A DNA stretch of 32,498 nt from Pseudomonadota bacterium (GCA_023954855.1 JAGSGY010000063.1:1-32498), one strand, 5' to 3'; numbered from the stretch's first letter, positions 9,854-32,386 are shown. The notes: generated from the sequence alone by a model not told the origin. A program made the numbers and translations.

Positions 9854-9890
9854 ATTAGCGAGGCTGAGTGTGGCACACAAGGTCGCTAAT
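9854..9890. promoter_or_regulatory. Nested inverted repeat in the control region before the MoxR-Bat operon
   Basis: ATTAGCGA (9854-9861) and TCGCTAAT (9883-9890) are perfect inverted copies 21 bases apart, and GTGTG-G-CACAC (9868-9878) is centred within one base of the same axis. A further short repeat, CTTGG-ACAAA-CCAAG, follows at 9891-9905. The element lies 24 bases before the start of the minus-strand membrane protein and about 150 before moxR. It could be an operator for a dimeric regulator or an RNA hairpin. The rest of 9830-10041 shows no clear promoter. Confidence 0.45.
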
Positions 9891-10041
9891 CTTGGACAAA
9901 CCAAGGCTTCTGCGTCCTCGGCTGTTCCCGGATCCTACGCGGCCAACGCATCGAATGTGCGCGGTTGTCCCTTCTCGTCCGTGTCAGCGGCATCCCGGCT
10001 CCGATGCCATTAAGGTCGGTGAGTCCTACCCGGAGGTGGCT

Positions 10042-11022: not shown

Positions 11023-11888
11023 TGCTGACTGCCGAGGAGCTGCGCGAGCTGCGCAAGCTTCACATCACTGCCGGACGCAAGGTCGACTCGCTGTTTGGCG
11101 GCGACTACCGCAGTGCTGTGCGCGGTCGAGGCATGGAGTTCGAGGAGGTGCGCGAGTACTTCCCCGGCGACGACGTGCGCCACATCGACTGGAACGTCAC
11201 GGCGCGCACCGATCAGCCGCACGTGAAGGTGTTCCGCGAAGAGCGGCAGGTCACGGTCATGCTGGCCGTGGACGTCTCGGGGTCGACGCGCGTCGGCACG
11301 GGCGGTCGCGATGGACGCACGACCCGGCGGCTGCAGATGGCGCGGGTGGCCGGCGGACTCGCCTATGCCTCGATGCGAAACCGCGACACCGTGGGCCTGG
11401 TGACGTTCTCGAACGACATCGAGAGGGTGCTCGTGCCGCGCCGCAGCCGCAACCACACCTGGGCGGTCATTCAAGCGGTGTACGAAGGCGAAGCCAAGGG
11501 TCGTGGAACCGACCTGACCGCCGCACTCGGGCATGTCAGTCGCATTCAGCGCCGCCGTGCGGTGATGGTCATCGTCAGTGACTTCCTCGACGATGGACCC
11601 TGGGCGCGCATGCTCGGGGCGATGTCCCGAAAGCACACCGTCCACGCCGTGCTCGTGCACGACGCCCTCGACAAGAAGCTGCCCAGCCTCGGGCTCATCG
11701 ACGTGCTCGACCCCGAGACCGGCCGCACCCGCACCATCGATGCGCGTCGCCTTGCCGCCGGCCCAAGTGTCGAAGAGCGCCTCACTGCCCTCCGTCGCGC
11801 GGGCGCGAGAGCACTCGCCGTCTCCACCGAAGACGACCCATTCCTCGCGCTGCATCAGCACTTCCAGCGGCTGGGGCGCGGACGATGA
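11022..11888 (+). CDS. DUF58 protein of the MoxR-Bat operon
   Basis: A 288-residue DUF58 protein with the family hallmark from about residue 33: RGRGMEFEEVREY-PGDDVRHIDWNVTAR, followed by a VWA-like segment starting with AVDVSGS (Asp84-Ser88, the DxSxS metal site). DUF58 proteins are regular partners of MoxR ATPases; the molecular role is not settled. No signal peptide, so cytosolic. The GTG start shares one base with the moxR stop (TAGTG), and its end overlaps the next start by ATGA, so the operon is translationally coupled. Confidence 0.93.
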   Translation: MLTAEELRELRKLHITAGRKVDSLFGGDYRSAVRGRGMEFEEVREYFPGDDVRHIDWNVTARTDQPHVKVFREERQVTVMLAVDVSGSTRVGTGGRDGRTTRRLQMARVAGGLAYASMRNRDTVGLVTFSNDIERVLVPRRSRNHTWAVIQAVYEGEAKGRGTDLTAALGHVSRIQRRRAVMVIVSDFLDDGPWARMLGAMSRKHTVHAVLVHDALDKKLPSLGLIDVLDPETGRTRTIDARRLAAGPSVEERLTALRRAGARALAVSTEDDPFLALHQHFQRLGRGR

Positions 11889-13162
11889 GGGCCCTATTCC
11901 TGCTTGTGCTGGTGGCTTGTGGTGCGCCGCAGCTGTCGACCCTCGATGACGACGCGCCGGTCGAGGTGCGCACCGCGGTCCAGGGTAAGACCAGCGCCCG
12001 AGGCGGACGCTTCGAGCTGGTGGTCGAGCACGACGCAGACATCGAGGTGGAGTGGCCGGAGGTCCGGCCGGCGCGCCTCGAGATCGAACAAGACGGTGAG
12101 GTGCGCGAAGAGCGCATCGGTGACCGCATCGTGCGCACCGGCCAGTACACCTTCACCGCGGCAAAAGGCAGCTACGTGGTGCCCGCGGTGCTGGTGCGCT
12201 TCGAGGACGAGGGTGTCGCCGGTGCCGCATCTTCGCAGCCGCTCTACGTCGACCTGGGCGTCGAGGCCCCTCGGCCTGGTGAGCTCGCTGACATCAGCGA
12301 CCCCGCACCGAGAAGGCGCTTTCCGTGGTGGCTCGCGGGCACAGCCCTCGCCGTGCTTGCGCTGTTCGTGGCCGGTCTTGCGGTGGCCTTCCGAAAGGGA
12401 GACCAGCGCGAGCTTGCGGCCGTGCCGCCCGAGCCCCCCGACGTCATCGCACTTCGCGCCTGGGAGGCGATTCGCGAGTCCTCCTTGTCCGACTACGACA
12501 AGGCCCTCGGCGTGTCGCGCATCTACCGGGACTACGCCGAGAGCGTGCTGAGCTTCAAGGCCACCGCACTCACGACCACCGAAATCCTCGAGCGTCTGCG
12601 ACACATGGTTCACCTCGACGAGGGCAACCTTCCGCGTTCGAAGCGATTGTTGCGGGCCACCGACCGCATCAAGTTCGCCGACGTCGATGCACACGACGCG
12701 CTGTTCGACGAGCTTGACGCGGACTTGCGCGCCTTTGTCGACTCGACCCGTCCCCACCACTGGGAGCCCGAAGAGCAGGGCGAGAAGCGCGTCATCGAGG
12801 AACGTCCGACCTTCGATGCGGCATGGTGGCTGTTGATCAGCAATCGGGTCGCGGCAGCGGGCGCGGCGGGTGGTGCGGCAGCGCTTATGTTGGCGATGGG
12901 CCGCGAGTTTCGGGCGGCGGGTCTGCCGATCGAGGCCTTCGTCGGAACGCTGGTCGTCGCCTCGGTGCTGCTCGTGATCGCGGCGATGCACGGTGCGCTG
13001 AGCGTCGAGGTCACGGCCAAGCGTCTCAAGTGGGTGCAGATTCCGGTCGGCATCCTCTACCTGGTGTTCATTCCGATCGGCACGGTCTACGGGCTCGGCG
13101 CGCTCTACTTCGCGTTCTTCGCCGATGCCGGGCGTCAGTTCTACGGTCGAGGTGCCACGTGA
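11885..13162 (+). CDS. Membrane-bound BatD/DUF4381-like lipoprotein of the Bat operon
   Basis: A 425-residue protein that does not match one standard Bat component. It begins with a short lipoprotein signal MRALFLLVLVAC (Cys12), then a beta-rich periplasmic part (about 20-130) resembling a single BatD domain, a membrane helix at about 147-170, a cytosolic helical part (about 175-300) like the C-terminal region of DUF4381 proteins, and about three further helices near residues 316-415. If lipidated, the protein would be both acylated and polytopic, which is unusual; the signal could instead act as a plain first helix. It overlaps both neighbours by four bases and occupies the position where DUF4381 genes commonly sit in these operons. 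Confidence 0.75.
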   Translation: MRALFLLVLVACGAPQLSTLDDDAPVEVRTAVQGKTSARGGRFELVVEHDADIEVEWPEVRPARLEIEQDGEVREERIGDRIVRTGQYTFTAAKGSYVVPAVLVRFEDEGVAGAASSQPLYVDLGVEAPRPGELADISDPAPRRRFPWWLAGTALAVLALFVAGLAVAFRKGDQRELAAVPPEPPDVIALRAWEAIRESSLSDYDKALGVSRIYRDYAESVLSFKATALTTTEILERLRHMVHLDEGNLPRSKRLLRATDRIKFADVDAHDALFDELDADLRAFVDSTRPHHWEPEEQGEKRVIEERPTFDAAWWLLISNRVAAAGAAGGAAALMLAMGREFRAAGLPIEAFVGTLVVASVLLVIAAMHGALSVEVTAKRLKWVQIPVGILYLVFIPIGTVYGLGALYFAFFADAGRQFYGRGAT

Positions 13163-14100
13163 TCGAGTGGGCCTCACCGTGGGCGTTTGCCTTGCTGCTG
13201 CCGGTGTTGGTGGTGCCGTTTCGCCATCGGCTGTTCGGCCGGAGCGCGATTGCGCTGCCTCACGCCGAGTCGCGCTTCAAGGGCCGCTCGCTGCGTGAGC
13301 TGCTGGCTCCGCTGCCCGATCTGCTGCTGACCGTCGGTCTGGTCTGCTTGGTCATCGCCCTCGCTCGGCCTCGGGTCACGCTTCGCGACGTCGTCGTCGA
13401 GAGCGACGGGCTCGACATCCTGCTCACCCTCGACACCTCGGGCTCCATGCGTGAGACCGACCTGTCGACGGGCATTATGGCCGTCGATCGGCTCACCGTC
13501 GCCAAGCGGGTGATTCACGAGTTCGTGCTCGGCCGGCCCTACGACCGCATCGGCTTGGTGGTCTTCGGCGAGGAGGCGTTCACCCAGGTACCGCTGACCA
13601 GCGACCATGAGTCGCTCGTCGGCGTGCTCGACTATGTGCGCATCGGCTCGGCAGGGCCCGGCGCCACTGCGATTGGCCAGGCGCTTGCGGTCTCAGGCCG
13701 GCGCATGAACCAGATCGACGCGCCGAGCCGTATCGTGATCTTGCTCACCGACGGCCGCAACAACGCGGGCCGCATCTCGCCGATTGACGCCGCCCAGGCC
13801 GCAGCCGCCCTCGACATACGCGTCTACACCATTGGAGTGGGCTCGCGCGGCGCGGACGGGCTGGACGAAGCGACCCTGAAGTCTGTCGCCGAGGCCACTG
13901 GCGGCAAGTACTTTCGCGCCGATAGCCAGGGCACGCTGATCGACATCTTCGAGCTGATCGACGAGCTCGAGACCTCGCCCGCCGAGGTCACCGAGTACTC
14001 CGAGCACCTCGAGCTGTTTCGCCGCTGGGCGATTCCCGGGCTGCTGCTGCTGTTGCTGCAGTTCTTGCTCGCGCAGACCTGGCTTCGGAGGGGTCCATGA
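13159..14100 (+). CDS. batA: BatA-like VWA membrane protein
   Basis: A 313-residue protein with two N-terminal membrane helices (about 6-22 and 53-70), a periplasmic or cytosol-facing VWA domain (about 85-280) and a C-terminal helix (about 290-308). The metal-ion-dependent adhesion site is intact: DTSGS at 92-96, Thr in 'GATAIG' and Asp in 'LTDGRNN'. VWA proteins of this type are putative MoxR clients; in Bacteroides the Bat proteins were linked to aerotolerance. The GTG start at 13159 overlaps the upstream TGA; an earlier start at 12823 would lie inside the preceding gene. Confidence 0.92.
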   Translation: MIEWASPWAFALLLPVLVVPFRHRLFGRSAIALPHAESRFKGRSLRELLAPLPDLLLTVGLVCLVIALARPRVTLRDVVVESDGLDILLTLDTSGSMRETDLSTGIMAVDRLTVAKRVIHEFVLGRPYDRIGLVVFGEEAFTQVPLTSDHESLVGVLDYVRIGSAGPGATAIGQALAVSGRRMNQIDAPSRIVILLTDGRNNAGRISPIDAAQAAAALDIRVYTIGVGSRGADGLDEATLKSVAEATGGKYFRADSQGTLIDIFELIDELETSPAEVTEYSEHLELFRRWAIPGLLLLLLQFLLAQTWLRRGP

Positions 14101-16019
14101 ACTTCGCCGAGCCGATCTGGGCCGTTGGAATGGCCATCTTGCCGTTCATGTTACTGCTCGCGGCGTGGATAGGCGCTCGCCAGCGACGTGGCCTCGCGCA
14201 GCTGTTTCGAGGCGACATGCTCGCCCGCATTCTGCCGAAGAACCTGGTGATCAGGCGCCGGATTGGCCTGCTGCTCTGGGGCCTTGGTCTCGCGTTGATC
14301 TTCGTCGGCCTCGCCGAGCCCCGCTACGGCAAAGAGGTGCGTGAGGTCGAGCGCAAGGGCGTCGACATCGTGCTCGCCGTGGACCTGTCGCGCTCGATGC
14401 TCGCCCAGGATGTGGAGCCGTCGCGACTCGGTCGCGCCCAGCGTGAGCTGTACGACTTCGTCGAGATGCTCGACGGCGACCGGATTGGCTTGGTCATCTA
14501 CGCCGGGGGCGCCTACGGCCGCATGCCCCTGACCCTCGACTACGACGCCTTCGAGCTGCTCGTGCGCGAGCTCGACACCTCGACCTTCTCGGCGCAAGGC
14601 TCGGCACTCGGTGGGGCGATTCGCGAGTCGCTGCGGCTTCTTGGCGAGGACGAGGGAACCGGACGCGCGATTCTTGTTCTGTCTGATGGAGAGGTTCACG
14701 ATGCCGCCGACGCGATGGCCGCTGCACAGGAAGCCCGAGACGGCGCGGTGCGGGTGTATGCGCTCGGTATTGGCGATGACGCGGCTCCCATTCCGCTACG
14801 GGATGGACGTTCGCTCACCTGGAAGGGCGAGACCGTGCTGAGCACGCCCAGTGCCGATGTGCTTCGTGACGTGGCGAAGGCGACCGGAGGGGCCTACGTC
14901 CAGAGTACGGCTTCGGTGGACGACATGCAGCGGCTCTACCAGCACGAAATTCGACGCTCGCTCGAGGCGCGGGCCACGGGAACCTCGCAGAAGGAGACCT
15001 GGCGTTCCGCATTTCAGGTGCCGCTCGGGCTCGGCATGATGGCTGTGCTGCTGGGCATCGTCCTTGGCGAGTCGCGACGTGCGGCTCTGGTGCTCGTGGC
15101 CCTGCTGATCGCCATGCCCGCTCGCGCGGCTTCGGTCGTCGAAGGGGACGAGGCCTACCGCGAAGGACGCTACGGCGAGGCGGTGTCGGTGTTCACAGAG
15201 CTCGCCGGGCAACAGCCGGGCAATGCGGAGCTCTGGCAGCGTCTCGGCGCGTCTCGATACCGTGCGAACGACTTCGAGGGTGCCGCACGCGCCTACGACC
15301 GTGCCTCGCGTCTCTCCGACGACCTCGGGTCGACCTTCTCGGCGGGCAATGCGCACTACCAGGCTGGGCGCCTCGACGAGGCTCTGCAGCGCTACGACGA
15401 AGTGCTCACCCGCCAGCCGGGCCACGCCGGCGCGCGTCGCAATCGCGAGATCTTGGTGCGTGAGCTCGAGGATCGGCGCCTGCAGGATCCGCCGCCGCCG
15501 CCGAAGCCAGAGCCCCAAGAGGGCGAGCAGGAGCAAGAGGGCGAGCAGGGCGAAGGCGAGCAAGGTGAAGGGGAGCCCGGCGAGGAAGGCGAGCAGGGCG
15601 AAGAGGGTGACCCCGGCCAGGCCCAGCCGGGCGAGGGTCAGGAAGGCTCGAGCGAGGAAGGCGGCAGCGAGGGCGAGACCCAGGACGGCATGGGCTCCGG
15701 CGACCCGCAGGACAATCCAGAGCAAGAGGGTGGCGGCGCCTCGCAGTCGGATGGCACCGACCGTAGTGGTGAGCAAGCCCAAGGTGAGCCCGGCGAAGAA
15801 GAAGGCGAGGGCGAAGGCGAGCTCGAGAGCCTCGAGGCGCTCGAAGGCGAGGGCGAGGGCGAAGAAGAGGGCGTGGTCTCGGGCCAAGGCGCATCGAATG
15901 GTGCCGGCGAAGAGGGCGGCCCGATGACCGAAGCCCAGGCCGAGCGCATGCTCGAGGGCGTCGAAGAGGGCCGGCCGCGCGTGGTGATCCCCGGTGGGCG
16001 CTCGGAGAACCCGTGGTGA
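14097..16019 (+). CDS. batB: BatB-BatC fusion: VWA domain, TPR repeats and acidic tail
   Basis: A 640-residue protein joining two Bat components that are often separate genes. Residues 1-75 hold two membrane helices, about 88-300 a VWA domain with the metal site DLSRS (96-100) and 'LSDGEVHD', then a membrane helix near 310-345. A TPR region of about three repeats (345-455) follows ('GDEAYREGRYGEAVSVF', 'GNAHYQAGRLDEAL'). Residues 465-600 are a low-complexity Glu/Gly/Gln tract, and the end, AERMLEGVEEGRPR...ENPW, matches the conserved BatC-type C-terminus. It overlaps batA by ATGA and batD by four to seven bases. The TPR part probably organises the complex on the membrane. Confidence 0.92.
   Translation: MNFAEPIWAVGMAILPFMLLLAAWIGARQRRGLAQLFRGDMLARILPKNLVIRRRIGLLLWGLGLALIFVGLAEPRYGKEVREVERKGVDIVLAVDLSRSMLAQDVEPSRLGRAQRELYDFVEMLDGDRIGLVIYAGGAYGRMPLTLDYDAFELLVRELDTSTFSAQGSALGGAIRESLRLLGEDEGTGRAILVLSDGEVHDAADAMAAAQEARDGAVRVYALGIGDDAAPIPLRDGRSLTWKGETVLSTPSADVLRDVAKATGGAYVQSTASVDDMQRLYQHEIRRSLEARATGTSQKETWRSAFQVPLGLGMMAVLLGIVLGESRRAALVLVALLIAMPARAASVVEGDEAYREGRYGEAVSVFTELAGQQPGNAELWQRLGASRYRANDFEGAARAYDRASRLSDDLGSTFSAGNAHYQAGRLDEALQRYDEVLTRQPGHAGARRNREILVRELEDRRLQDPPPPPKPEPQEGEQEQEGEQGEGEQGEGEPGEEGEQGEEGDPGQAQPGEGQEGSSEEGGSEGETQDGMGSGDPQDNPEQEGGGASQSDGTDRSGEQAQGEPGEEEGEGEGELESLEALEGEGEGEEEGVVSGQGASNGAGEEGGPMTEAQAERMLEGVEEGRPRVVIPGGRSENPW
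15515..15870 (+). repeat. Low-complexity GAG/GGC-rich repeats in the BatB-BatC gene
   Basis: Irregular repeats of GAGGGCGAGCAG-type units encode E-G-E, E-Q-G and E-G-E-G-E runs, densest at 15515-15612 and 15795-15870. Such DNA is prone to length change, and the encoded segment is probably disordered and strongly acidic. Confidence 0.8.
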
Positions 16020-17677
16020 GCTGGCTTCTTCGTGTGCTGGTGCTCTGCTTCGTGTCCTCACCGGCCTGGGCAGCGTCCGTGTCGCTCGTCGTGGGTGCGA
16101 GCGAGTTCGCGGCTGGGCAGACCACCACCGTCGAGGTGCAGGTTGTCGACGGAAAGCCTCTTGCTGTGCCGCAGATCACCGTTCCAGACGGCTTCGAGAT
16201 CGAGTACCTACACCCCTCGAACATGACCATTCGCTCGGGCGGGCGCTTGGTGCGAGTGGTGCGCTACCAGTACGAGCTCACCGCGACGGTCGAGGGCTCG
16301 TTCACGATCGGTCCGGCCACTGTCGAGCTTGCGAGTGGCGAAGACCTGGTGTCGCTCACGCGCTCCGTCGGCATCCTCGCCGAGGGCGACATGCTCAACC
16401 AGCCCTTCGACGCCGAGATCAGCTACACGCCGAGCGAGGCCTGGGAGGGTGAGGTCGTCGTGTTTCGGTACCGGCTGCGCTCGCGTGTGCGGCCGGCTCG
16501 AACCCGCTGGCACCCCTTCGACTTCGAGGGACTGGTGGCACCGCGAGACGGTGACCGTCCCCGGCGCGAGTACTCGATCGAGGATGCCACCGGATCCATC
16601 TGGATGGACGAGACCTGGATTCCGCTGATCGTCACCGGCACCGGCGACCTGTCGATGGAGTCGACGGTCCTGAACTTGTTCCTGCCGACGGATGAGCGTC
16701 GCGATCCGCTCGGCCTCTTCGGTCGCACCCGCGCCGAGGTCGTGATGGCGGGTCCGGCTCCGTTGGTGGGCAAGGCCTTGCCCCCCGCTCCCGACGACTT
16801 CAGCGGCCTGGTCGGGGACTTCTCGCTCGAAGGGGGCTTCGACACCACGGCGCTCTCGGTCGGCGAGAGTGCGACCTGGACCCTCAGTTTGCGGGGGCAG
16901 GGGGCCCTCGACGGCTTCGTCGTCCCCAAGCCCGAGGCCGATGGCCTGCGTGTGTACGACGGCGCGACGGCCACCAGTGCGGCGATGCGCGATGGCACCT
17001 ACACCTCCGCGGCTCGGTATGAGCTGTCGGTCGTGCCCACGCGGGCTGGCAAGGTCCAGGTTCCGAAGCTCGAACTCGTGGTCTTCTCGCCGTCGCGGGG
17101 CGACTACATCACCCTCGAGACGCCGGGGCGGACCCTGACGGTGAGTCCCGGCTCGGGTACCGCCGTCGACGTCGAGAGCTTTGCCCCGGACGCCATCCCA
17201 GATGAGCCCGTCGAGGTGCTGCCTGCCGATATCCGCGGACCGAAGAGCTTCGGCTTAGCGCGCTCGATCTGGCTGGGGCCGCTGCTGCCTTGGGCCTTGC
17301 TCGCAGCGGGGCTTCCCGGCCTGTTGGCCCTGTTTGCCGGCGGACTCGAGGCGGCTCAGGCCGCGCGGGAGCGGCGACGCAAGCCCCTCGAGGCGGTGGT
17401 CGACCCACTGGCCCGGCTACGCCACCTCCCCGAGGAGCGCGAGGCGCGGCTCACCGAGCTCGACGCGGCCTTCCGCGAGTGTCTCGCGCTCCGAGAGGGT
17501 GTGGCCGTGGGTGGGCTGGACCGCTCCGCGGCGGTCGCGAATCTGCCCGATGGCCTGCGTGAGAAGGTCGTCGACGCCACCCGAGCCCTGGACCGCGCGC
17601 GCTTTGCGGATGGACCCGAAGACGACCTGGTCGAGCGCGTCATTACCTTGGTCGATGCCGTGGGGGATGCTGCATGA
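16016..17677 (+). CDS. batD: BatD (oxygen-tolerance family) protein
   Basis: About 553 residues. A cleavable signal, WLLRVLVLCFVSSPAWA, is followed by a long periplasmic part with BatD-type beta-sandwich domains (about 20-410), which contain the usual 'YELTATVEGSFTIGP', 'YTPSEAWEGEVVVFRY' and 'RYELSVVPTRAGKVQVP' segments. A membrane helix lies near 420-448, and a cytosolic, charged helical domain of about 100 residues ends the protein. GTG 16013 and 16016 are both possible; 16016 gives the GTGA overlap typical of this operon. BatD is thought to act with the VWA proteins at the inner membrane. Confidence 0.9.
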   Translation: MSWLLRVLVLCFVSSPAWAASVSLVVGASEFAAGQTTTVEVQVVDGKPLAVPQITVPDGFEIEYLHPSNMTIRSGGRLVRVVRYQYELTATVEGSFTIGPATVELASGEDLVSLTRSVGILAEGDMLNQPFDAEISYTPSEAWEGEVVVFRYRLRSRVRPARTRWHPFDFEGLVAPRDGDRPRREYSIEDATGSIWMDETWIPLIVTGTGDLSMESTVLNLFLPTDERRDPLGLFGRTRAEVVMAGPAPLVGKALPPAPDDFSGLVGDFSLEGGFDTTALSVGESATWTLSLRGQGALDGFVVPKPEADGLRVYDGATATSAAMRDGTYTSAARYELSVVPTRAGKVQVPKLELVVFSPSRGDYITLETPGRTLTVSPGSGTAVDVESFAPDAIPDEPVEVLPADIRGPKSFGLARSIWLGPLLPWALLAAGLPGLLALFAGGLEAAQAARERRRKPLEAVVDPLARLRHLPEEREARLTELDAAFRECLALREGVAVGGLDRSAAVANLPDGLREKVVDATRALDRARFADGPEDDLVERVITLVDAVGDAA

Positions 17678-18438
17678 GGTGGCTTTTCCTCTTCGCTTTG
17701 ATCGGCTGTGCGCCCGTGCGCGACGGCACCACGTCCTGGCAGGCGGGTGAGCTCGAGCAGGCCACGACCGCATGGACCTCCGGCGGGGGCAGTCCTTCCG
17801 CGGCGGTGCACTACAACCTCGGTGTTGCTGCGTACCGCGCGGAGGAACTGCCGCTGGCGGTGGCTCACTGGCGAGCAGCGCGTCGCCTCAAGCCACGCGA
17901 TGGCGATGTGGTTCACAACCTCGCCCATGTGCGCGGTGATCTGAGCGGTGTCTCTGCTCCGGTGGGCGAACCGCTGTCCTGGATGGAGTTCGCGACGCCC
18001 GTGGAGCTCGGCTTGATCGGCATTGCGCTCGTGGGCTGGGCCTCGTTTGGGCTGGTGGCGCGTCGTCGTCGTCGCAAGGGAACACTGGCTCCGTGGCTGC
18101 TTCTCGGAGCGACTGGTGCCGGAGTCGGCCTGGCCGGAGTGCATGGGGCCATCAGCTGGACCCGGGCGCCCGTGTTCGTGCTGCAGACCGATGTGGTCCT
18201 TCGCGATGGCCCCGACAGCTCGGGCCAGGAGCTTGGCCAGCTCGGCGCGGGCAGTGAGGTCGCGCTCGTCGCGGCCGCTGGACCCTGGGTGCGCGTCGCT
18301 GATGGCGCTTCGCGTACCGGCTGGGTGCCGGCAGGTGCGGGTCTGGTAGTGGGCCCTGTTCCCGCCGGAAATGCGCGTCTGGCCGGCCTTGCCGATGTGG
18401 CTGTGCCCGCCGAACCGGCGGCCTCCGAGAAGCCTTGA
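17674..18438 (+). CDS. batE: BatE-like lipoprotein: TPR, two helices and SH3b domain
   Basis: A 254-residue protein with a short lipoprotein-type signal MRWLFLFALIGC (Cys12), TPR-like helices (about 25-85, 'HYNLGVAAYRAEELPLAVAHW'), two membrane helices (about 107-127 and 137-160) with a basic RRRRR loop between them, and a bacterial SH3 domain (about 168-235, 'VVLRDGPDSSGQELGQL' to 'RTGWVPAGA'). This TPR-TM-TM-SH3 layout is that of BatE. It overlaps batD by ATGA and closes the coupled part of the operon. Confidence 0.88.
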   Translation: MRWLFLFALIGCAPVRDGTTSWQAGELEQATTAWTSGGGSPSAAVHYNLGVAAYRAEELPLAVAHWRAARRLKPRDGDVVHNLAHVRGDLSGVSAPVGEPLSWMEFATPVELGLIGIALVGWASFGLVARRRRRKGTLAPWLLLGATGAGVGLAGVHGAISWTRAPVFVLQTDVVLRDGPDSSGQELGQLGAGSEVALVAAAGPWVRVADGASRTGWVPAGAGLVVGPVPAGNARLAGLADVAVPAEPAASEKP

Positions 18439-18461
18439 CCTCCGGCTGTCACGTCGTTGGT

Positions 18462-18467
18462 TATTCT
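18462..18467 (+). promoter_or_regulatory. Possible -10 box before the GWxTD-like lipoprotein
   Basis: TATTCT lies 30 bases before the ATG, with GGAGG between. The nearest good -35, TTGACC at 18435-18440, is 21 bases away, which is too far for a standard sigma-70 promoter. The same TATTCT stands at 1104-1109, again about 30 bases before a start. Weak evidence. Confidence 0.25.
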
Positions 18468-18491
18468 CGCCCCCCTGGAGGACTTCGCCCC

Positions 18492-19001
18492 ATGCGTACC
18501 CTTGCCATCGTGCTGCTCGCCTCGACCGTCCTGACCGGCTGTATGGGCGCCAAGATCAAGCGTCTGTCTGCTGTCGAGCAAGACCATTACTACGCGCTCA
18601 AGGTCTTCATGAACGACTCTGTCGAGAAGACCTTCCTCAAGTTCAAGACCGAAGAAGAGCGCAACGCCTACTTGCAGGAGCGCGGTCTTTGGGACCACTT
18701 CTACAAGTACCCCGACCACGTGCGTGAGCTGATCATCGCCGGTGAGGTCCAGTCGGGCTGGGCCGAGGACCAGATGTTCATGGCCTGGGGTGAGCCCTAC
18801 GACCGCCGTCGACTCACCGGTCGGCCGGCATCGCGTTCCGAGCTGTTCGTGTACCGCTTCGAGGTCGCCCCCGACGGCGTGATTCGCGTGTGGACGCCCT
18901 CTTCCAAGACCGCCTACAAGGCTGTCGACTTCTACCAGATCGACGTCTACGTCGATGACGAGCGTCTCTCCGAGATGGAGCGAAAGGAAGACTGGGACTG
19001 A
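18492..19001 (+). CDS. Lipoprotein resembling GWxTD-domain proteins
   Basis: A 169-residue predicted lipoprotein: signal MRTLAIVLLASTVLTGC with lipidated Cys17. The body has a helical charged part followed by 'SGWAEDQMFMAWGEPYDR', which resembles the GWxTD signature and the following 'xxxGxP' strand, then a beta-rich part ending in a run of Asp/Glu/Lys. GWxTD domains are found in secreted proteins of Acidobacteria and delta-proteobacteria, with no settled function. ATG 18492 was chosen over an earlier in-frame start inside batE because GGAGG and the lipobox fit it. It lies 53 bases after batE. Confidence 0.75.
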   Translation: MRTLAIVLLASTVLTGCMGAKIKRLSAVEQDHYYALKVFMNDSVEKTFLKFKTEEERNAYLQERGLWDHFYKYPDHVRELIIAGEVQSGWAEDQMFMAWGEPYDRRRLTGRPASRSELFVYRFEVAPDGVIRVWTPSSKTAYKAVDFYQIDVYVDDERLSEMERKEDWD

Positions 19002-26098: not shown

Positions 26099-27658
26099 GT
26101 GCTCACACTTCTCGCAGCGCTGCTGTTCTCCTCCGCACACGCGGCTACCGTCGATCGCGTGGCGGCGGTCGTCAATGACGACGTGATCGCACTGTCCGAG
26201 GTCTACGATCTCGGCGACGCCTTCATTCGTCAGTCCTGCCCGCGACTGAACCCGATCTGCGTGGAAGAGGCTGAAGTACAGGTGCTCGACTCCTTGATTC
26301 AGCGCAGGCTGATGCGCCAGGAGCTGTACCGCTTGGGCATGCAGGTCACCTCAGAAGAGATCGATCGCACGATCGACCAGGTGGGCCGCGACAACGGGCT
26401 GACGGAACGTGGCGACCTACGACGTGAAATCGAGCGAGCCGGGTTGACCTGGGAGGTCTACCGCGAGCAACTCACCGAGCAGATCCGCTCGATGAAGTTC
26501 ACAGAGAGCGTCATCCGTCCCCGCATCCAGGTGCGCGAGTCTGACGTCGAAGAGCGCTACCGCCGTGCGACCAAGGACTACGAGGGTCCGCCGACAGCCG
26601 CCGTTGAGGCGCTCGCGCTCGCGCTGCCGGAGGACGGCGGGCAAGAGGGCCTGATCGAGGCCGTCGCTCGCGCCCGGGCGATCATGACGGGTGTCAACGC
26701 CGGTGAGCAGGACTGGAAGACGGCCGTCGCCGAGAATGACTCCGGTCTGTACGCCCCCCGCGAGGGCGTGATGGGCGACTTCCACCAGGGTGAGCTCATG
26801 CCCGCCCTCGACGCAGTGGTGTTCGGCTCCGAGGTTGGCAAGGTCAGCGAGCCAGTGGTTGTGGGCAGCGCCGTGTTCCTCATTCTCGTCACCGAGATGC
26901 GCGAATCCGACGTGCTCAGCTACGAGCAAGCCGCTCCGAAGATCCGCGAGCAGCTGTTCAACGAGAAGAGCGAGCGCGAGCTTGAAGAGTGGACCGCATC
27001 GGCGCGTCGGCGCGCTGCGGTGAAGGTCATGCTTGGTGACGGCTCGGGCTCGACCGAGATCAAGCGGGTGTCCGCGGAGGAAGAGGCCGAAGTAGCCCCC
27101 GAGGTCAGCAAGCCGGCGCCCGAGCCTGCTGAGACCGCCGAGCCGGCAGGGACCCCCGAGCCGGCCGAGACCCCCGAGGTCAGCAAGCCCGCCCCAGAGA
27201 CCCTCGAGACGCCGGCGGGCACGTCGACCTTGCCCCCGGGCAAGAAGGCGCCCGCTACCGCCGGTGACGACGCGACCGACACGACCGATGAGGCTGGTGG
27301 CACCTCCGAGGCCGCCGGCGGCGAGCCCAGCACGCCCGCGGTGACCAAGCCGACGGAACAAGCCCCTTCCGACGGGGCGGACGGCGCCGACGTTGAGGCT
27401 GCGCCCGAGGCCACCAAGCCCGCCGAGGACGCCCCGACCGAGGCGGCTCCGACCGAGGAGGCTCCGACCGAGGAGGCTCCGACCGAGGAGGCTCCGACCG
27501 AGGAGGCTCCGACCGACGACGCTCCGGCCGAGACGGACGAGGAGCCCGCGAAAGAGGGGCCGTGGAGCGGCGACTCTCCGCAAGATTCGGAAGAGGGCAC
27601 CGGTTCCGAAGAGGATGGCGGTCCATGGGAAGGAGACCCGACGGAAGCCCCCGAGTGA
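26099..27658 (+). CDS. surA: SurA-like periplasmic chaperone with long acidic Pro/Thr-rich tail
   Basis: A 519-residue protein. Signal MLTLLAALLFSSAHA, then a SurA N-terminal chaperone domain (about 17-150; starts 'VDRVAAVVNDDVIALSEV', the SurA hallmark), and a parvulin-like domain (about 155-275) that keeps the fold pattern ('EGVMGDFHQGELMPALDAVVF') but may be catalytically degenerate. Residues about 310-519 are a low-complexity Pro/Ala/Glu/Thr tail with near-perfect EEAPT repeats, absent from classical SurA. The GTG start follows the upstream stop directly, and pdxA overlaps the end by four bases. The surA-pdxA neighbourhood is conserved in Proteobacteria such as E. coli and supports the call. 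Confidence 0.85.
   Translation: MLTLLAALLFSSAHAATVDRVAAVVNDDVIALSEVYDLGDAFIRQSCPRLNPICVEEAEVQVLDSLIQRRLMRQELYRLGMQVTSEEIDRTIDQVGRDNGLTERGDLRREIERAGLTWEVYREQLTEQIRSMKFTESVIRPRIQVRESDVEERYRRATKDYEGPPTAAVEALALALPEDGGQEGLIEAVARARAIMTGVNAGEQDWKTAVAENDSGLYAPREGVMGDFHQGELMPALDAVVFGSEVGKVSEPVVVGSAVFLILVTEMRESDVLSYEQAAPKIREQLFNEKSERELEEWTASARRRAAVKVMLGDGSGSTEIKRVSAEEEAEVAPEVSKPAPEPAETAEPAGTPEPAETPEVSKPAPETLETPAGTSTLPPGKKAPATAGDDATDTTDEAGGTSEAAGGEPSTPAVTKPTEQAPSDGADGADVEAAPEATKPAEDAPTEAAPTEEAPTEEAPTEEAPTEEAPTDDAPAETDEEPAKEGPWSGDSPQDSEEGTGSEEDGGPWEGDPTEAPE
27431..27535 (+). repeat. 15-base tandem repeat in the SurA-like gene
   Basis: Seven tandem 15-base units of the form GCTCCGACCGAGGAG run from 27431 to 27535; four (27446-27505) are identical and the outer ones differ by a few bases. 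Each codes A-P-T-E-E. The unit is a multiple of three, so gain or loss changes tail length without breaking the frame. Confidence 0.95.
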
Positions 27659-28584
27659 AGCCTCTGATCGTCACTCCGGGCGACCCGCTCGGGGTGGGCC
27701 CAGAGCTAGCGGCGAGGGTTCTCCGGGATCGTGAGCTGAGTGGCTCACCCACGGCCGTCGTGCTCGTGGGAGACGGGGCGAGCATTGCGCGAGCCGCGGA
27801 CGCGGTGAACCTTCGGCTTCGTGCTGACGGTCCGTTCGTGGACGGTCCAGGAGTAGGGGTCGTCGATACCTCCACGGGTGACGAGCCCGCCGAGGTGGGC
27901 GCGATTCGCTACGCGGTCGACGCGATCACCGCCGGGCGCGCGCGCGGGCTGGTCACGGGACCGATTCACAAGGCGAGGTTGCGCGCTCGCGGGTTCACCT
28001 ACTCGGGCCACACCGACTTTCTCGGGGCCCTCTGTGGCGCAGAGCCTGTGATGGCGTTTGTCGGCGGCGATCTGCGCGTGGCCTTGGTCACCGTACACAT
28101 TCCGCTTCGAGCAGTAGCAGACGCCATCACGCGTGAGGCCGTGCTGCACACCCTGAAGACGGCCCACGCGGCCCTCGAGCGCGACTTGGGCCTCAAGGCT
28201 CCGCGGCTGGGTGTCTGCGGACTCAACCCGCACGCTGGCGAGGACGGGGTGCTCGGCTCTGAAGAGGTGGCGGTCATCGGACCCGCTGTCGAGGATGCGC
28301 GCGCCTTGGGCATCGATGCCCGCGGGCCGCTGTCTGCCGAGGCCGTGTTTCGGCAGGCCGCTGAAGGGCAGGTCGACCTTGTGGTCGCGATGTACCATGA
28401 TCAGGGCTTGGCCCCACTCAAGCTGGTCGACTTCGGACGGAGCGTAAACTGGACCCTCGGACTGCCGATTGTGCGCACCTCGGTGGACCACGGAACCGCC
28501 GACGACATCGCCTGGACGGGCAAGGCCGATCCGGCCAGCTTCGAGGCAGCACTCTCCCTCGCCGAGCGACTTACTTCGCGCTGA
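27655..28584 (+). CDS. pdxA: 4-hydroxythreonine-4-phosphate dehydrogenase PdxA
   Basis: NAD-dependent enzyme of the DXP-dependent pyridoxal phosphate pathway, oxidising 4-phosphohydroxy-L-threonine for condensation by PdxJ. The 309 residues show the start motif TPGDPLGVGPE, substrate-binding GHTDF (His119, Thr120), metal ligands His148 (VTVHIPL), His193 (GLNPHAGE) and His248 (MYHDQGL), and the end motif 'VRTSVDHGTADDIA'. It is slightly shorter than usual (about 325-335) but complete in motifs. GTG 27655 overlaps the surA stop (GTGA); the longer frame from 27562 lies inside that gene. The genes that follow E. coli pdxA (rsmA, apaG) are absent here; lipoprotein genes follow instead. Confidence 0.95.
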   Translation: MKPLIVTPGDPLGVGPELAARVLRDRELSGSPTAVVLVGDGASIARAADAVNLRLRADGPFVDGPGVGVVDTSTGDEPAEVGAIRYAVDAITAGRARGLVTGPIHKARLRARGFTYSGHTDFLGALCGAEPVMAFVGGDLRVALVTVHIPLRAVADAITREAVLHTLKTAHAALERDLGLKAPRLGVCGLNPHAGEDGVLGSEEVAVIGPAVEDARALGIDARGPLSAEAVFRQAAEGQVDLVVAMYHDQGLAPLKLVDFGRSVNWTLGLPIVRTSVDHGTADDIAWTGKADPASFEAALSLAERLTSR

Positions 28585-29003
28585 TCGGCGTGTTCGGGTG
28601 TGCGGAACTCGACGACCCGCGTCCGCGGCGGCTCAGCGCCCCCGAGTTCATCGATGTGTCGCTGGAGTGCACCGGCAGTGGGTGGCTTCTCGAGGCCGAG
28701 ACCTCTAGCTGGACCCGGGGGGGCATGCTCTGGCTCGACGACGGCTTGCGCCGAGAGCGCCACTCAGTGCCTTCCGTCGCCGCAGAGGTCGACCAGTCCG
28801 GTGATTTCCTGCGGCTTACCCTCGATGTCATCGCCGACTCGGACCAGTGGCAGGCCGGTCGCACATCCGGCTTTCTCTGTGGTGAGCGGCCGCTTCGCCA
28901 GGTGTACGCGATCTCGTTCGACTACGAGGCCGCAGATTGTCGCCGAGACCCGGGCTTTCCCGAGATCGAGGGTGTCGATCCCTGCGGCGAGCGCTGGCCT
29001 TGA
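28581..29003 (+). CDS. Divergent member of the Cys/WGH lipoprotein family, start uncertain
   Basis: About 140 residues. The frame reads 'TYFALIGVFGC' before an acidic mature part, which looks like a lipoprotein signal, but no ATG, GTG or TTG precedes it. CTG 28581 overlaps the pdxA stop (CTGA) but leaves only six residues before the cysteine; GTG 28590 would destroy the signal; an upstream CTG at about 28512 would give a full-length signal. The body repeats the family spacing C-x4-W-x5-T-x2-W ('ECTGSGWLLEAETSSW'), then has cysteines in 'FLCGER', 'AADCRRD' and 'DPCGER'. It lacks the C-x-C-F tail. Its TGA overlaps the TTG start of the next member. Confidence 0.6.
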   Translation: MIGVFGCAELDDPRPRRLSAPEFIDVSLECTGSGWLLEAETSSWTRGGMLWLDDGLRRERHSVPSVAAEVDQSGDFLRLTLDVIADSDQWQAGRTSGFLCGERPLRQVYAISFDYEAADCRRDPGFPEIEGVDPCGERWP

Positions 29004-29515
29004 GGTGGCCGTTCTGTCTCGCTTTCGTCGGCTGCGTCCAGCCCGGCGACACGGCGGATAGCCCCCCGCCCAGCATTGTACTCTCGCGGGTGAATGCCGC
29101 CGAGTGGAGCTGCGACGAAGACCAGTGGACCTATGATGTCAGCACGCTCGGGTGGGTGGACACTGTGCGCATCGACCTGTTTCGCACTGCCGACTGGCCG
29201 GGGGGACCGAATGTCGGAATCCTCGCTGAGGACCACGGCCTGGCGGTGCTCACCTTTGCCGAGGACCGCAGCTGGACGCACTGGCAGGTGACGCTTGCTG
29301 TGGTGGAGGAAGCGGTTCAGGTCAATGGCGAGAGCACGGCTCTGGTCTGCGAAGCCGACACGCCAGCCGAGGTCGCCAGCCGTCTGAAGGTCTGGCAGGA
29401 GGGGGCCCTGCAGGACTGCGTGATCTGGGGTCAGCGCTCCGAGGACTACTTCAACACGGCCCTGCGCGACGATTGTTACTGCTTTGACAGCGAGCGCGGC
29501 TGCGGCACTTGGTAG
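29000..29515 (+). CDS. Six-cysteine WGH-family lipoprotein, copy 1
   Basis: A 171-residue lipoprotein with signal MRWPFCLAFVGC (Cys12), Asp/Thr/Pro linker, and the family motifs: WSCDEDQWTYDVSTLGW (Cys38), Trp-rich middle 'DRSWTHWQV', 'STALVC' (Cys117), 'DCVIWGQR' (Cys140) and 'DDCYCF' (Cys159, Cys161) with a last Cys168. The six mature cysteines suggest three disulfides. I do not recognise the family. TTG 29000 overlaps the previous stop (TTGA) and gives the only sensible signal; starts further upstream lie in the preceding gene. It is the last coupled gene of the surA-pdxA unit. Function unknown; a periplasmic or surface location is likely. Confidence 0.72.
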   Translation: MRWPFCLAFVGCVQPGDTADSPPPSIVLSRVNAAEWSCDEDQWTYDVSTLGWVDTVRIDLFRTADWPGGPNVGILAEDHGLAVLTFAEDRSWTHWQVTLAVVEEAVQVNGESTALVCEADTPAEVASRLKVWQEGALQDCVIWGQRSEDYFNTALRDDCYCFDSERGCGTW

Positions 29516-29627
29516 GTCCATGCAGACGAATGAACGGGTCTTCTGTCTCATCCGGGGGGTGCGGATTGGGGAAGCTGAAGACTTTGCGCTGAATCGTCGG
29601 GTACACTGAGCCTCCGTGAGGAGACCT

Positions 29628-30191
29628 ATGAAGTACGCAACGCTTGCTCTTGCCCTGTTCGCCTTTGGCTGCAGCGACGAAGGCGGTTCCGACGGTGACT
29701 CGGATGCACCCGTCGGCGATGTTTCCGAGATCCAGACGGTCGACTGGAACTGCGATCAGACGAGCTGGACCTACATCACTCGCACAGACGGGCTGGCGCA
29801 CACGGTCCAGGTGCAGGTGTTCGATAGCGACGCATGGGATGGCAGCGCCGAGCCCTCCGAAGAGGATGCCTGGGGCGAGACGCACCAGTTCTTCAACACC
29901 GATGTCGCGGCCGATGAGAGCTGGTTCGAGTACGAGGGCACGGTGTCCAAGGTCGAGAACACCTCCCAGGTGGTCGAAGGCCAGTCCACTGTCTTCGAGT
30001 GTGGCCGTCAGGGTGCTGACACCCTCGCCTTCTCGATGCAGGTGCGCGATGCCAATGACAACGTCTTCGACTGCGCGCTGTGGGGCCACCGCTCCGCCGA
30101 GTGGTTCAACGACACCCTCGGCATGGACTGCCTGTGCTTCGAGTCCGAAGAAGACGGCGCCTGCGGCGACCACAGCAACCTCGGGAAGTAG
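29628..30191 (+). CDS. Six-cysteine WGH-family lipoprotein, copy 2
   Basis: A 187-residue lipoprotein with signal MKYATLALALFAFGC (Cys15) and a Gly/Ser/Asp-rich linker. Family motifs: WNCDQTSWTYITRTDGL (Cys42), 'WGETHQF', 'ADESWFEY', 'STVFEC' (Cys125), 'DCALWGHR' (Cys149), 'DCLCF' (Cys168, Cys170), Cys179. ATG 29628 follows GAGGAG; the GTG at 29616 is upstream of this site. The 112-base gap before it holds an ATCCG-N7-CGGAT inverted repeat (29550-29566) and TACACT (29602-29607), a possible -10, so it may have its own promoter. It runs tail-to-tail into the methyltransferase gene with three bases between the stops. Confidence 0.78.
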   Translation: MKYATLALALFAFGCSDEGGSDGDSDAPVGDVSEIQTVDWNCDQTSWTYITRTDGLAHTVQVQVFDSDAWDGSAEPSEEDAWGETHQFFNTDVAADESWFEYEGTVSKVENTSQVVEGQSTVFECGRQGADTLAFSMQVRDANDNVFDCALWGHRSAEWFNDTLGMDCLCFESEEDGACGDHSNLGK

Positions 30192-30194
30192 CGC

Positions 30195-31073
30195 CTAGGC
30201 CGGGCTGATCGAGACTGAGTCATCCTCGATGATCGCGCGCACCTTCACCGAAGCGCCCGCGCCAGCGCCGATCTCGGCGGGCCACGCGTTGACGTGCTGG
30301 CCCCAATGGGTCGTGCTTCCCGGTGGGTTCCGCATGGTGATGCCCCCGCCCAGGTCGGCTTCAAACCAGATCACCACGCCGCCGATCGGACCGGGGTCGA
30401 TGCTGGTGATCTCGCGGACGACCTCCTCATCGGGTTCTTCGCCTGTCCCAAGGGCGATGTCCCAGAGCAGGACGGGCTCGCTCGCCAGGCGCTCGCCGCC
30501 GGTGACGTAGCGATAGGGGCCCGGGTCGGCGAGTCCGGAGAGAAGCGGTCCGACCTCGAGCCCGAAGCGCTCACCCACGCCGGCAATCGCGCGCCGAGCG
30601 TCACGAACTTCCTTGGCCGAGTCCGAGCTTCGGACCAGCTGGGCGTAGACCTTGAGGCGACTCGGAGCGAGCTGGCCGCCGGGGACGAGCCAGGTCGCTG
30701 CGGACTCCATCGCCTCGACGACCCCTTCGTAGAACGGGTCTGCGTTGAGCAGCTCACTGAAGGCCAGATCCACGGGCCTCGGCTCGAGCTCTTCGACGGT
30801 GCTCTCCAGCAGGTGGACCCGGTCGGTGAGGCCGTTGGCGGCGATCAGCTCGCGTGCGACCTCTGAGATCGCCGTGGGCTCGACAGCCCAGACTTCCTTC
30901 GCCCCCAGAGCGGCGGCTGTGCAGGACCACAGGCCGGTTCCGCAGCCGACTTCGAGGACGCGTGCCCCCGGTGCTCGGGTCGCGAGCATTTTCAGAAGCG
31001 CTTCGTTCCGGCCGGCGTCCGAGAGCAAGCGGATGTGCTCCCACGGGTCACCAAATCGCTCGACGCCCTCCAT
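30195..31073 (-). CDS. PRMT-like protein arginine methyltransferase
   Basis: A 292-residue S-adenosylmethionine-dependent methyltransferase with the layout of protein arginine methyltransferases. N-terminal 'LLSDAGRNEALL' resembles the PRMT 'M..D..RN..Y' start. Motif I is VLEVGCGTG (39-47), the acidic end of strand 2 is AVEP (Glu65), and the double-E loop appears as SELLNADPFYEG (Glu107, Glu116). The beta-barrel part has 'LVPGGQLAPSRLKVYAQL' and ends with a THW loop, THWGQHVNAW (255-264). All PRMT hallmarks are visible, closest in style to the PRMT7-like group. Target unknown. ATG 31073 follows GGAGG; longer readings overlap the upstream lipoprotein. No membrane segment, so cytosolic. Confidence 0.85.
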   Translation of the reverse strand: MEGVERFGDPWEHIRLLSDAGRNEALLKMLATRAPGARVLEVGCGTGLWSCTAAALGAKEVWAVEPTAISEVARELIAANGLTDRVHLLESTVEELEPRPVDLAFSELLNADPFYEGVVEAMESAATWLVPGGQLAPSRLKVYAQLVRSSDSAKEVRDARRAIAGVGERFGLEVGPLLSGLADPGPYRYVTGGERLASEPVLLWDIALGTGEEPDEEVVREITSIDPGPIGGVVIWFEADLGGGITMRNPPGSTTHWGQHVNAWPAEIGAGAGASVKVRAIIEDDSVSISPA

Positions 31074-31127
31074 GCTGCCTCCCTGCCGAGCGAGGGTAAC
31101 CGGCGAGGGGCTCGGCGACGGGCGGAA

Positions 31128-31164
31128 GGCTCGACGTGAGGCTGAGTCAGCGTCGCGTCGAGCC
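31128..31164 (-). other. Hairpin between lipoprotein copy 3 and the methyltransferase
   Basis: GGCTCGACG (31128-31136) pairs with CGTCGAGCC (31156-31164), and the loop contains the self-complementary GCTGAGTCAGC (31141-31151). On the minus strand it begins six bases after the stop of lipoprotein copy 3. No T tract follows, so it may be a weak terminator or an RNA-stability element. Confidence 0.55.
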
Positions 31165-31170
31165 CCCGAA

Positions 31171-31704
31171 CTAGCAGTCGAAGCAGTAGCAGCTGGTGCC
31201 GTAGGCCTCGATGGGACGGTGGCCCCACACGCCACAATCGAGCGTCTGGTTGTCGTCGTCGTACATCGTGGCCTTCCAGGAGAGGCTGTCGGCGGCGTGG
31301 TAGCCACACTGGAACAGCGTCGACTCGCTCGACACCTGGTTGGCAAAGCTCGAGGCGCTGCGTAACGAGACCTGCCATTCATCCCAGGAACCGTCCTCGG
31401 CGTAGGCCAGGTTCTGGTCGAAGACGTGGTACTCGTCCCAGACGGCGGAAGGGTCGGTGGTCCAGCTACCGTCGCCCGTCTCGACGATGTCGAGGGTGAT
31501 GGTCGAGGCCCACCCATCGGTGAGGGCGTAGTAGGTCCACGTGCCGCTGTTCGGCTCGCAGCTCCAGTCGAGCTGGGAGAGCTGCCACGGACCGGCATAC
31601 GCGGCGCTCGCGGTGTCGCCCCAACTGTCGCCCGTGTCGGTCTCGAGACCGGTGCAGCCGACGAGTGCAATGAAGGTAGCGGCGAGGATGGCGATGCGGG
31701 TCAT
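31171..31704 (-). CDS. Six-cysteine WGH-family lipoprotein, copy 3
   Basis: A 177-residue lipoprotein with signal MTRIAILAATFIALVGC (Cys17) and a Thr/Asp/Gly-rich linker. Family motifs: GPWQLSQLDWSC (Cys49), 'TWTYYALTDGW', 'WDEYH', 'EDGSWDEWQV', 'STLFQC' (Cys133), 'LDCGVWGHR' (Cys157), and SCYCFDC at the end (Cys172, Cys174, Cys177). It is most similar to copy 4, sharing Y-x-GPWQ, TDGW and STLFQC. GGAGA precedes ATG 31704. A terminator (31773-31803) separates it from copy 4, so it needs its own promoter, which I could not identify in the 31705-31772 stretch. Confidence 0.82.
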   Translation of the reverse strand: MTRIAILAATFIALVGCTGLETDTGDSWGDTASAAYAGPWQLSQLDWSCEPNSGTWTYYALTDGWASTITLDIVETGDGSWTTDPSAVWDEYHVFDQNLAYAEDGSWDEWQVSLRSASSFANQVSSESTLFQCGYHAADSLSWKATMYDDDNQTLDCGVWGHRPIEAYGTSCYCFDC

Positions 31705-31772
31705 GGGGTCTCCTTCTCGGGATGACTCATCGACGCGCGGCGCTCAGATCTCTTCAATAGTCCCAACAGAAA

Positions 31773-31803
31773 AGAGCCCCGACCGCATGGCGATCGGGGC
31801 TCT
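31773..31803 (-). terminator. Intrinsic terminator after lipoprotein copy 4
   Basis: On the minus strand AGAGCCCCGA (31803-31794) pairs perfectly with TCGGGGCTCT (31782-31773) around an 11-base loop and is followed by TTTCTGTT. It begins 23 bases after the copy 4 stop and ends its transcript. Confidence 0.88.
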
Positions 31804-31825
31804 GTAGGCTTTCGCCGGATGCGAC

Positions 31826-32386
31826 CTAGTTGGTGCAGCCCGTGCCGAAGCAGTAGCAGTCGTCGCCCTGGTTGGTCTCCCAGTAATCCTCGGCCTCGTG
31901 GCCCCAGATGGCGCAGTCCATGAGCGCGTCGTTGTCGTCGAGCATCTCAGCCTTCCAGGTGAGGCTGGCGTCGTCGTGGCGCGGAGTCGTGCCGTCAGTC
32001 TGGAAGCACTGGAAGAGCGTGCTGGTGCCAGAGGTCACTTCGCCGGTGGTCGCAACGCTGGTGAGCTCGAGGTCCCAGGTGTCCCAGCTTCCGTCCTGAG
32101 CGAACTCGACGTTGCTCATGGGGTGGAACTCGTCCCAGACGTCGGCGTTGTTGGTGCCAGTCCAGGCGCCGGTCTCGAAGATGTCGAGGGTCATGTCGCC
32201 GGCCCAGCCGTCGGTCTTGACGTCGTAGGTGTAGCCGGTGGCGTCGCAGTCCCAGAGGACCTCTGCGACCTGCCAGGGGCCGTCGTAAGGGGCAGCGGCG
32301 GTGTCGCCAGTGGGGCCGTCAACTTCGCCTTCGCATGCAGCGAGGACGGACATGGCAGCGACCATGACGAGGGTAAGCTTGTTCAT
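31826..32386 (-). CDS. Six-cysteine WGH-family lipoprotein, copy 4
   Basis: A 186-residue lipoprotein with signal MNKLTLVMVAAMSVLAAC (Cys18), the most typical signal of the set, and a GDTAA linker. Family motifs: GPWQVAEVLWDC (Cys47), 'YTYDVKTDGW', 'VWDEFH', 'QDGSWDTWDL', 'STLFQC' (Cys127), 'MDCAIWGHE' (Cys158), 'DDCYCFGTGC' (Cys177, Cys179, Cys184). It has an extra nine or so residues after Cys127 compared with copy 3. ATG 32386 follows AAGGAG; the longer frame to 32479 has no signal. A single-gene unit with its own terminator. Function unknown. Confidence 0.82.
   Translation of the reverse strand: MNKLTLVMVAAMSVLAACEGEVDGPTGDTAAAPYDGPWQVAEVLWDCDATGYTYDVKTDGWAGDMTLDIFETGAWTGTNNADVWDEFHPMSNVEFAQDGSWDTWDLELTSVATTGEVTSGTSTLFQCFQTDGTTPRHDDASLTWKAEMLDDNDALMDCAIWGHEAEDYWETNQGDDCYCFGTGCTN

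Follow-up and report, generated by a model that had tools for sequence, protein, structure and literature searches.

The DNA stretch analysed here (JAGSGY010000063.1:1-32498 of assembly GCA_023954855.1; 32,498 nucleotides, hereafter the window) encodes an array of five paralogous lipoproteins, named WGH0 to WGH4, which is placed between hflX and pdxA. The family to which they belong is real and new to the databases, while what it does is unproven. Its members are homologous, possess lipoprotein signals, and are nearly confined to one order of the phylum Myxococcota, in which gene order is conserved and the start of one copy, the core copy, overlaps the stop of hflX. We favour, with a probability of roughly 0.45, the reading of a disulfide-braced envelope lipoprotein that is co-produced with HflX, that probably acts in envelope maintenance or stress, and that has diversified into paralogues. 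Role, ligand and final membrane of the WGH lipoproteins are inferred only, the role from position only. New here are the fifth member of the array, the family core of four cysteines, the distribution nearly restricted to one order, and the coupling to hflX.

Homology and distribution of the WGH lipoproteins

The four lipoproteins described by the first-pass annotation, with their motifs in the described order, were all read in the sequence at the coordinates of WGH1 to WGH4 (Table 1). A search of the own genome with WGH4 retrieved WGH3 (E 1.9e-34, 47% identity), WGH2 (9.1e-24, 34%), and WGH1 (9.8e-24, 39%). With E values of 1e-23 to 2e-34, WGH1 to WGH4 are true homologues, which bears out the paralogous family that had been proposed. 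A profile of 31 members detected the divergent WGH0 (match at 28653-28943, E 5.2e-12), which keeps the core cysteines and the E-x-H motif described below, and which is the ancestral-type member of the array. The array had been delimited as 28581-32386 with four members; the four stand, and the start at 28581 falls inside the missed fifth gene. Three more paralogues are present elsewhere in the genome, on contigs C134 (54%), C26 (47%), and C8 (profile E 1.0e-12). In the WGH4-like paralogue on C134 (L002:1498-2232), the lipobox and the WGH domain are separated by an acidic double-disulfide repeat (NF033662) and a long DTDSDSDSDTDTD linker; in this it is similar to the acidic-repeat and DTDTD-linker lipoproteins of Myxococcota. 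The matches to NF033662 concern this linker of one paralogue, whereas the WGH domain itself is unrelated to the repeat and occurs without it. Acidic repeat linkers are present in several family members.

No named domain with this signature was known to the first-pass annotation, and none was found by the profile search of the databases, which matched no characterised domain. The five window proteins had only sub-threshold matches in Pfam, and no Pfam or NCBIfam family was matched by more than one of 71 diverse members (best E 0.0049 and 0.019, respectively). The 71-row profile retrieved nothing below E 0.4 from the PDB sequences. Matches to PHROGs (ten members) and PADLOC (71 members) were at chance level; a link to defence was rejected, as the lone PADLOC match among the 71 members (E 0.007) was taken as chance. 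No relative was found in collections of phages, plasmids, and viral contigs, and an origin from a mobile element was rejected. In the literature on HflX with flotillin and on lipoprotein families of Myxococcota, no description of this family was found.

A profile search of 379 genomes of the phylum Myxococcota gave matches in sixty-two, comprising 58 of the 63 genomes of the order of the window and 4 of the 316 genomes elsewhere, with E values reaching 1e-45. On inspection, three of the matches outside the order have the same cysteines and seem to be true distant relatives. Two distant relatives outside the order (L131 and L132, family f44) are located beside lipoproteins with SDSDTDGDSD linkers and not beside pdxA. 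Among the matches listed, copy number ranges from 1 to 8 per genome, the genome of the window being the highest. The members of the order are environmental Myxococcota, known here only from draft genomes. The sister species, Deltaproteobacteria bacterium isolate M1803 (SBGP01000013.1), was the sole named relative in the contig scan, and its NCBI lineage puts the group in Myxococcota.

In a tree of 129 rows, obtained by a quick search on few columns, a clade of 53 rows (Shimodaira-Hasegawa-like approximate likelihood ratio test support 99) contains essentially one row per genome, including WGH0 and its orthologue in the sister species. Nearly all genomes contribute to this clade the copy that adjoins pdxA or hflX, called the core copy here, and one copy per genome is orthologous across the order. 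WGH1 to WGH4 belong to a separate clade with support 99, which is limited to four genomes from the family of the window, and are a lineage-specific expansion. The best matches of WGH0 (50% identity), WGH1 (43%), WGH2 (51%), and WGH3 (71%) are their positional counterparts in the sister species. As each of these four has its own orthologue there, the duplications predate the species split. The best match of WGH4 is also its counterpart (53%), with an ambiguous position in the tree. The proposal that the genes were duplicated and diverged in place thus holds in part, since WGH0 to WGH3 are older than the split and three copies are located on other contigs. Most WGH genes evolve faster than the flanking pdxA and methyltransferase genes, because both of these are 74% identical between the two species.

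Lipoprotein signal, cysteines and predicted fold

A lipobox was detected by a simple rule in 123 of the 129 members, two of the other six being cut at a locus edge, and it was read directly in all five members of the window. Each protein would be exported, lipidated at the N-terminal cysteine and tethered by a linker that is short, flexible, and acidic. Two invariant cysteines (DC... and GxxC), E-x-H, and T-x-F-x-C, which define the family, were found. All 129 members have the cysteine of DCxxWG and that of the following GxxC; the remaining core cysteines, of WxC and STxFxC, are present in 122 and 112, respectively. Both of the latter occur together in 111 members and neither occurs in six, while eleven members keep WxC without STxFxC. 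All of these eleven possess a replacement cysteine at another column, which fits a swapped disulfide partner. The second cysteine of CxC and the final cysteine are both present in eleven members, the first only in two, and neither in 116. Six conserved cysteines had been claimed; this is correct for the subclade of the window, whereas the alignment of the 129 members indicates a family core of four, the third (CxC...C) pair belonging to that subclade. Putative disulfide pairs 1-2, 3-4, and 5-6 are supported by this pattern, pair 3-4 by exclusion only, because it never varies. Besides the cysteines, the E-x-H motif is the most conserved element (E in 122 of 129 members and otherwise D, H in 122 of 129), and may be either structural or part of a putative binding site.

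The AlphaFold model of WGH3 (m4d3dfeddaa75), based on an alignment of ten sequences from the window and the sister species, has a predicted local distance difference test score of 83.6 and a predicted template modelling score of 0.80; it has eight strands, and the WGH motif is followed by a short helix. It predicts one compact beta-sandwich, in line with the compact extracytoplasmic domain expected by the first-pass annotation. Foldseek found no match to this model at E 0.001 or better in the PDB (best E 5.5e-3). A viral structure library gave no match at this level either. With a second aligner the best matches were immunoglobulin (Ig)-like sandwiches of many kinds, with a best Z of 7.6, a level usual for unrelated common sandwiches. 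The model supports an Ig-like beta-sandwich as fold class, without a close known relative or superfamily assignment. Similar to Ig-like and fibronectin-III-like domains, such as a glycoside hydrolase family 2 domain (6byc), the N-domain of TVA II (1jf6), and LAIR-1 (3rp1), the modelled WGH3 is a compact antiparallel sandwich, aligned with sandwiches of this type over 88-102 residues at 2.9-3.2 Å and Z about 7. However, there is no sequence relation to these domains and Z is not above the background of common folds. Neither the cysteine pattern nor the C-terminal helix with DCxxWG...C was seen in a named family. An earlier model, made for WGH4, was poor (predicted local distance difference test score 65.7), and its PDB matches, led by CBM21 (template modelling score 0.28), were discarded for the WGH3 model. 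Starch binding was rejected as a reading because it is not at the top of the list with the better model.

The domain would thus be a single Ig-like beta-sandwich with two core disulfides, WxC to STxFxC and DCxxWG to the GxxC that follows the short helix. In the subclade of the window, an extra small CxC...C bridge may form a third.

Gene order around hflX and possible roles of the family

HflX is a ribosome-splitting GTPase, which splits stalled ribosomes under stress. Of the 32 regional loci that contain a core copy, 31 also contain hflX, and the identity of the neighbouring HflX was established with TIGR03156 (444.5 bits, cut-off 216.75). The core copy usually comes straight after hflX, and in many cases an nfeD-like gene and two flotillin-like SPFH genes precede the pair. 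Nineteen distinct junctions have no gene between hflX and the core copy; in seventeen of them the stop of hflX and the start of the core copy overlap by exactly 4 nt, and of the other two, one has a CTG at the start site and the other a TAG stop. Four-base overlaps are common in bacterial operons; the persistence of this one in several taxonomic families suggests that joint translation has been selected for. In fifteen out of 57 genomes pdxA is located on another contig, and hflX still adjoins the core copy in fourteen of these fifteen.

On the other side of the array, ppiC-surA-pdxA is found in most genomes. A family member ends less than 1 kb downstream of pdxA in 38 of the 57 genomes having both, and in 36 of these 38 it is convergent with pdxA, being codirectional only in the genus of the window. 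In family f2, a second small lipoprotein gene was observed between hflX and the core copy (L025:1980-2333, L027:2070-2423, L031:822-1196); it encodes a DTDTD linker and a different, cysteine-poor domain, and may be a relative that has diverged strongly.

Upstream of hflX, many genomes possess two SPFH genes, in which the Band_7 domain was found, and the nfeD-like gene. Against the equivalog models for HflK, HflC, and FloT, the SPFH proteins matched FloT only, with 112-157 bits, below the cut-off of 700. The label nfeD-like derives from gene position and hydrophobic build only, and two representatives had no Pfam or NCBIfam match. Operons that combine SPFH genes with nfeD are frequent, and in gamma- and beta-proteobacteria hflX is in an operon with the SPFH genes hflK and hflC, whose products regulate FtsH (PMC13086221). 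The loci described here are similar to the hfq-hflX-hflK-hflC operon of these groups in that hflX is next to SPFH genes, and to SPFH-NfeD (flotillin) operons in that SPFH genes are next to an nfeD-like gene. They differ from the former in that the SPFH proteins match FloT, below the cut-off, and not HflK or HflC, and from both in that a lipoprotein gene is added as the last, coupled cistron.

According to the reading we favour, the ancestral single copy would be the last cistron behind hflX and translationally coupled to it. As last and coupled cistron, the core copy would be made together with HflX, and often with the two flotillin-like SPFH proteins. Most likely, it would be an envelope lipoprotein without enzymatic activity that serves in binding or as a structural element and is produced with this stress and quality-control module, while extra copies, including WGH1 to WGH4, may have diverged toward different binding partners. 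We consider with moderate confidence that a role in envelope stress or maintenance is the most economical one, because HflX splits stalled ribosomes and because of the operon links among SPFH genes, FtsH, and nfeD. The stronger claim, that the cytoplasmic HflX and the exported core WGH lipoprotein work as functional partners, and that the coupled pair joins translation stress and envelope maintenance by a previously undescribed link, appears unlikely at present.

Several points weigh against co-production with a shared role. A gene at the end of an operon may simply be carried along and have no function in common with the others, and the family has no characterised relative. SPFH genes are missing near hflX in about one third of the testable genomes, and hflX is therefore the only constant partner. 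In the genus of the window, the core copy is found on the pdxA side instead and has lost its coupling to hflX. As to the domain, the fold match is no stronger than the background for common sandwiches, and the covariation of the cysteines comes from a small number of independent changes, 1 to 4 in each column; corrected for relatedness, it does not reach significance, in a test that has no power.

The main rival is surface recognition or adhesion, in which outward-facing lipoproteins bind carbohydrates or cells, the paralogues diversify for ligands, and the position at hflX is a historical accident. The nearest structural neighbours of the model are Ig-like sandwiches, many of them from glycoside hydrolases and carbohydrate-binding modules; nonetheless, these neighbours are generic (Z under 8) and tell nothing of function, and no carbohydrate-binding residues could be assigned. 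The variable copy number (1 to 8 per genome for the matches listed), the acidic repeat linkers of several members, and the identity of only 43-53% for WGH0, WGH1, WGH2, and WGH4 between two congeneric species, versus 74% for pdxA and the methyltransferase, agree with diversification at the surface. However, the hflX coupling is kept across families, which an accident explains poorly, and we regard surface recognition as somewhat unlikely. A chaperone or assembly helper of the envelope, working with SurA and PpiC on the pdxA side and not with HflX, is quite unlikely. It would account for ppiC-surA-pdxA being next to the array in most genomes and for the genus of the window, in which WGH0 to WGH2 are codirectional with pdxA and WGH0 overlaps it. 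However, the 36 convergent cases out of 38 have, by their orientation, no transcript in common with pdxA, and the hflX link is kept in fourteen of the fifteen genomes with pdxA on another contig. A sensor lipoprotein binding a metal or another ligand via E-x-H would fit the conservation of this motif (E and H in 122 of 129 members each, E otherwise D), but the motif could equally be structural and no further conserved His/Asp cluster was found; we regard a sensor as very unlikely. An artefact of convergent low-complexity Trp- and Asp-rich open reading frames, as could be feared in a genome of high guanine-cytosine content with many spurious frames, is already refuted by profile E values to 1e-45, orthologues in dozens of genomes, the fixed gene order, and the confident fold.

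Unnamed lineage-specific lipoproteins are common; the hflX link makes this family stand out. An order-wide family without a curated name can now be defined by profile, anatomy, and fixed genomic position. Should the coupling to HflX have a functional meaning, a ribosome-rescue factor would be tied to an envelope lipoprotein, giving an entry point to the stress physiology of Myxococcota. Should it have none, annotators still gain a reliable name and a rule for well over 100 unnamed genes.

The array and other genes of the window

Table 1. WGH genes of the window and the genes located beside or among them
Feature	Coordinates	Strand	Basis and remarks
WGH0, divergent fifth member	28512..29003 (start predicted)	+	Orthologue of the one-per-genome core copy; lipobox GVFGC
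WGH1 lipoprotein	29000..29515	+	TTG start at 29000; homology and positional counterpart in sister species
WGH2 lipoprotein	29628..30191	+	Homology; sister-species counterpart 51% identical
WGH3 lipoprotein	31171..31704	-	Homology; modelled domain 31174-31602
WGH4 lipoprotein	31826..32386	-	Homology; sister species has hflX directly upstream on the same strand
pdxA (context)	27655..28584	+	tblastn and synteny; flanks the array across much of the order
Class I S-adenosylmethionine-dependent methyltransferase, inside the array, not a family member	30195..31073	-	Pfam Methyltransf_25, E 5.8e-9; in sister species at 74%

The reading frame of WGH0 has no ATG, GTG, or TTG before the lipobox with room for a signal peptide. 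The CTG at 28512 is the codon homologous to the GTG, located inside pdxA, with which the WGH0 orthologue starts in the sister species, and is the probable start, which would give a signal peptide ...RRATYFALIGVFGC. The 5' part of WGH0 overlaps the end of pdxA by 73 nt. Within this overlap (28512-28584), a synonymous third position of pdxA sets the start of WGH0: GCC-TGG gives CTG in the window, and GCG-TGG gives GTG in the sister species. The start of WGH1 overlaps the stop of WGH0 by 4 nt (TTGA, 29000-29003).

In the genome of the window, hflX is located 164 bases from the end of contig C74, and its orientation would fit C74 continuing from the right end of the window, which is the arrangement in the sister species. 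In the locus of the sister species (L037), WGH3 is inverted relative to the window (L037:6920-7453), and a DUF4026/DUF2314 gene is located beside the methyltransferase (L037:8558-9817).

Upstream of pdxA, the window encodes a SurA-like protein (26099-27658) with a long Pro/Glu/Ala/Thr tail, repeated EEAPT units among it, after the isomerase part, which is unusual for SurA. Genes for a MoxR-type ATPase, a DUF58-like protein, VWA proteins, a TPR protein, and a BatD-like protein were found in a row at 9868-18719, which, judged from the translations only, resembles a Bat (aerotolerance-type) operon.

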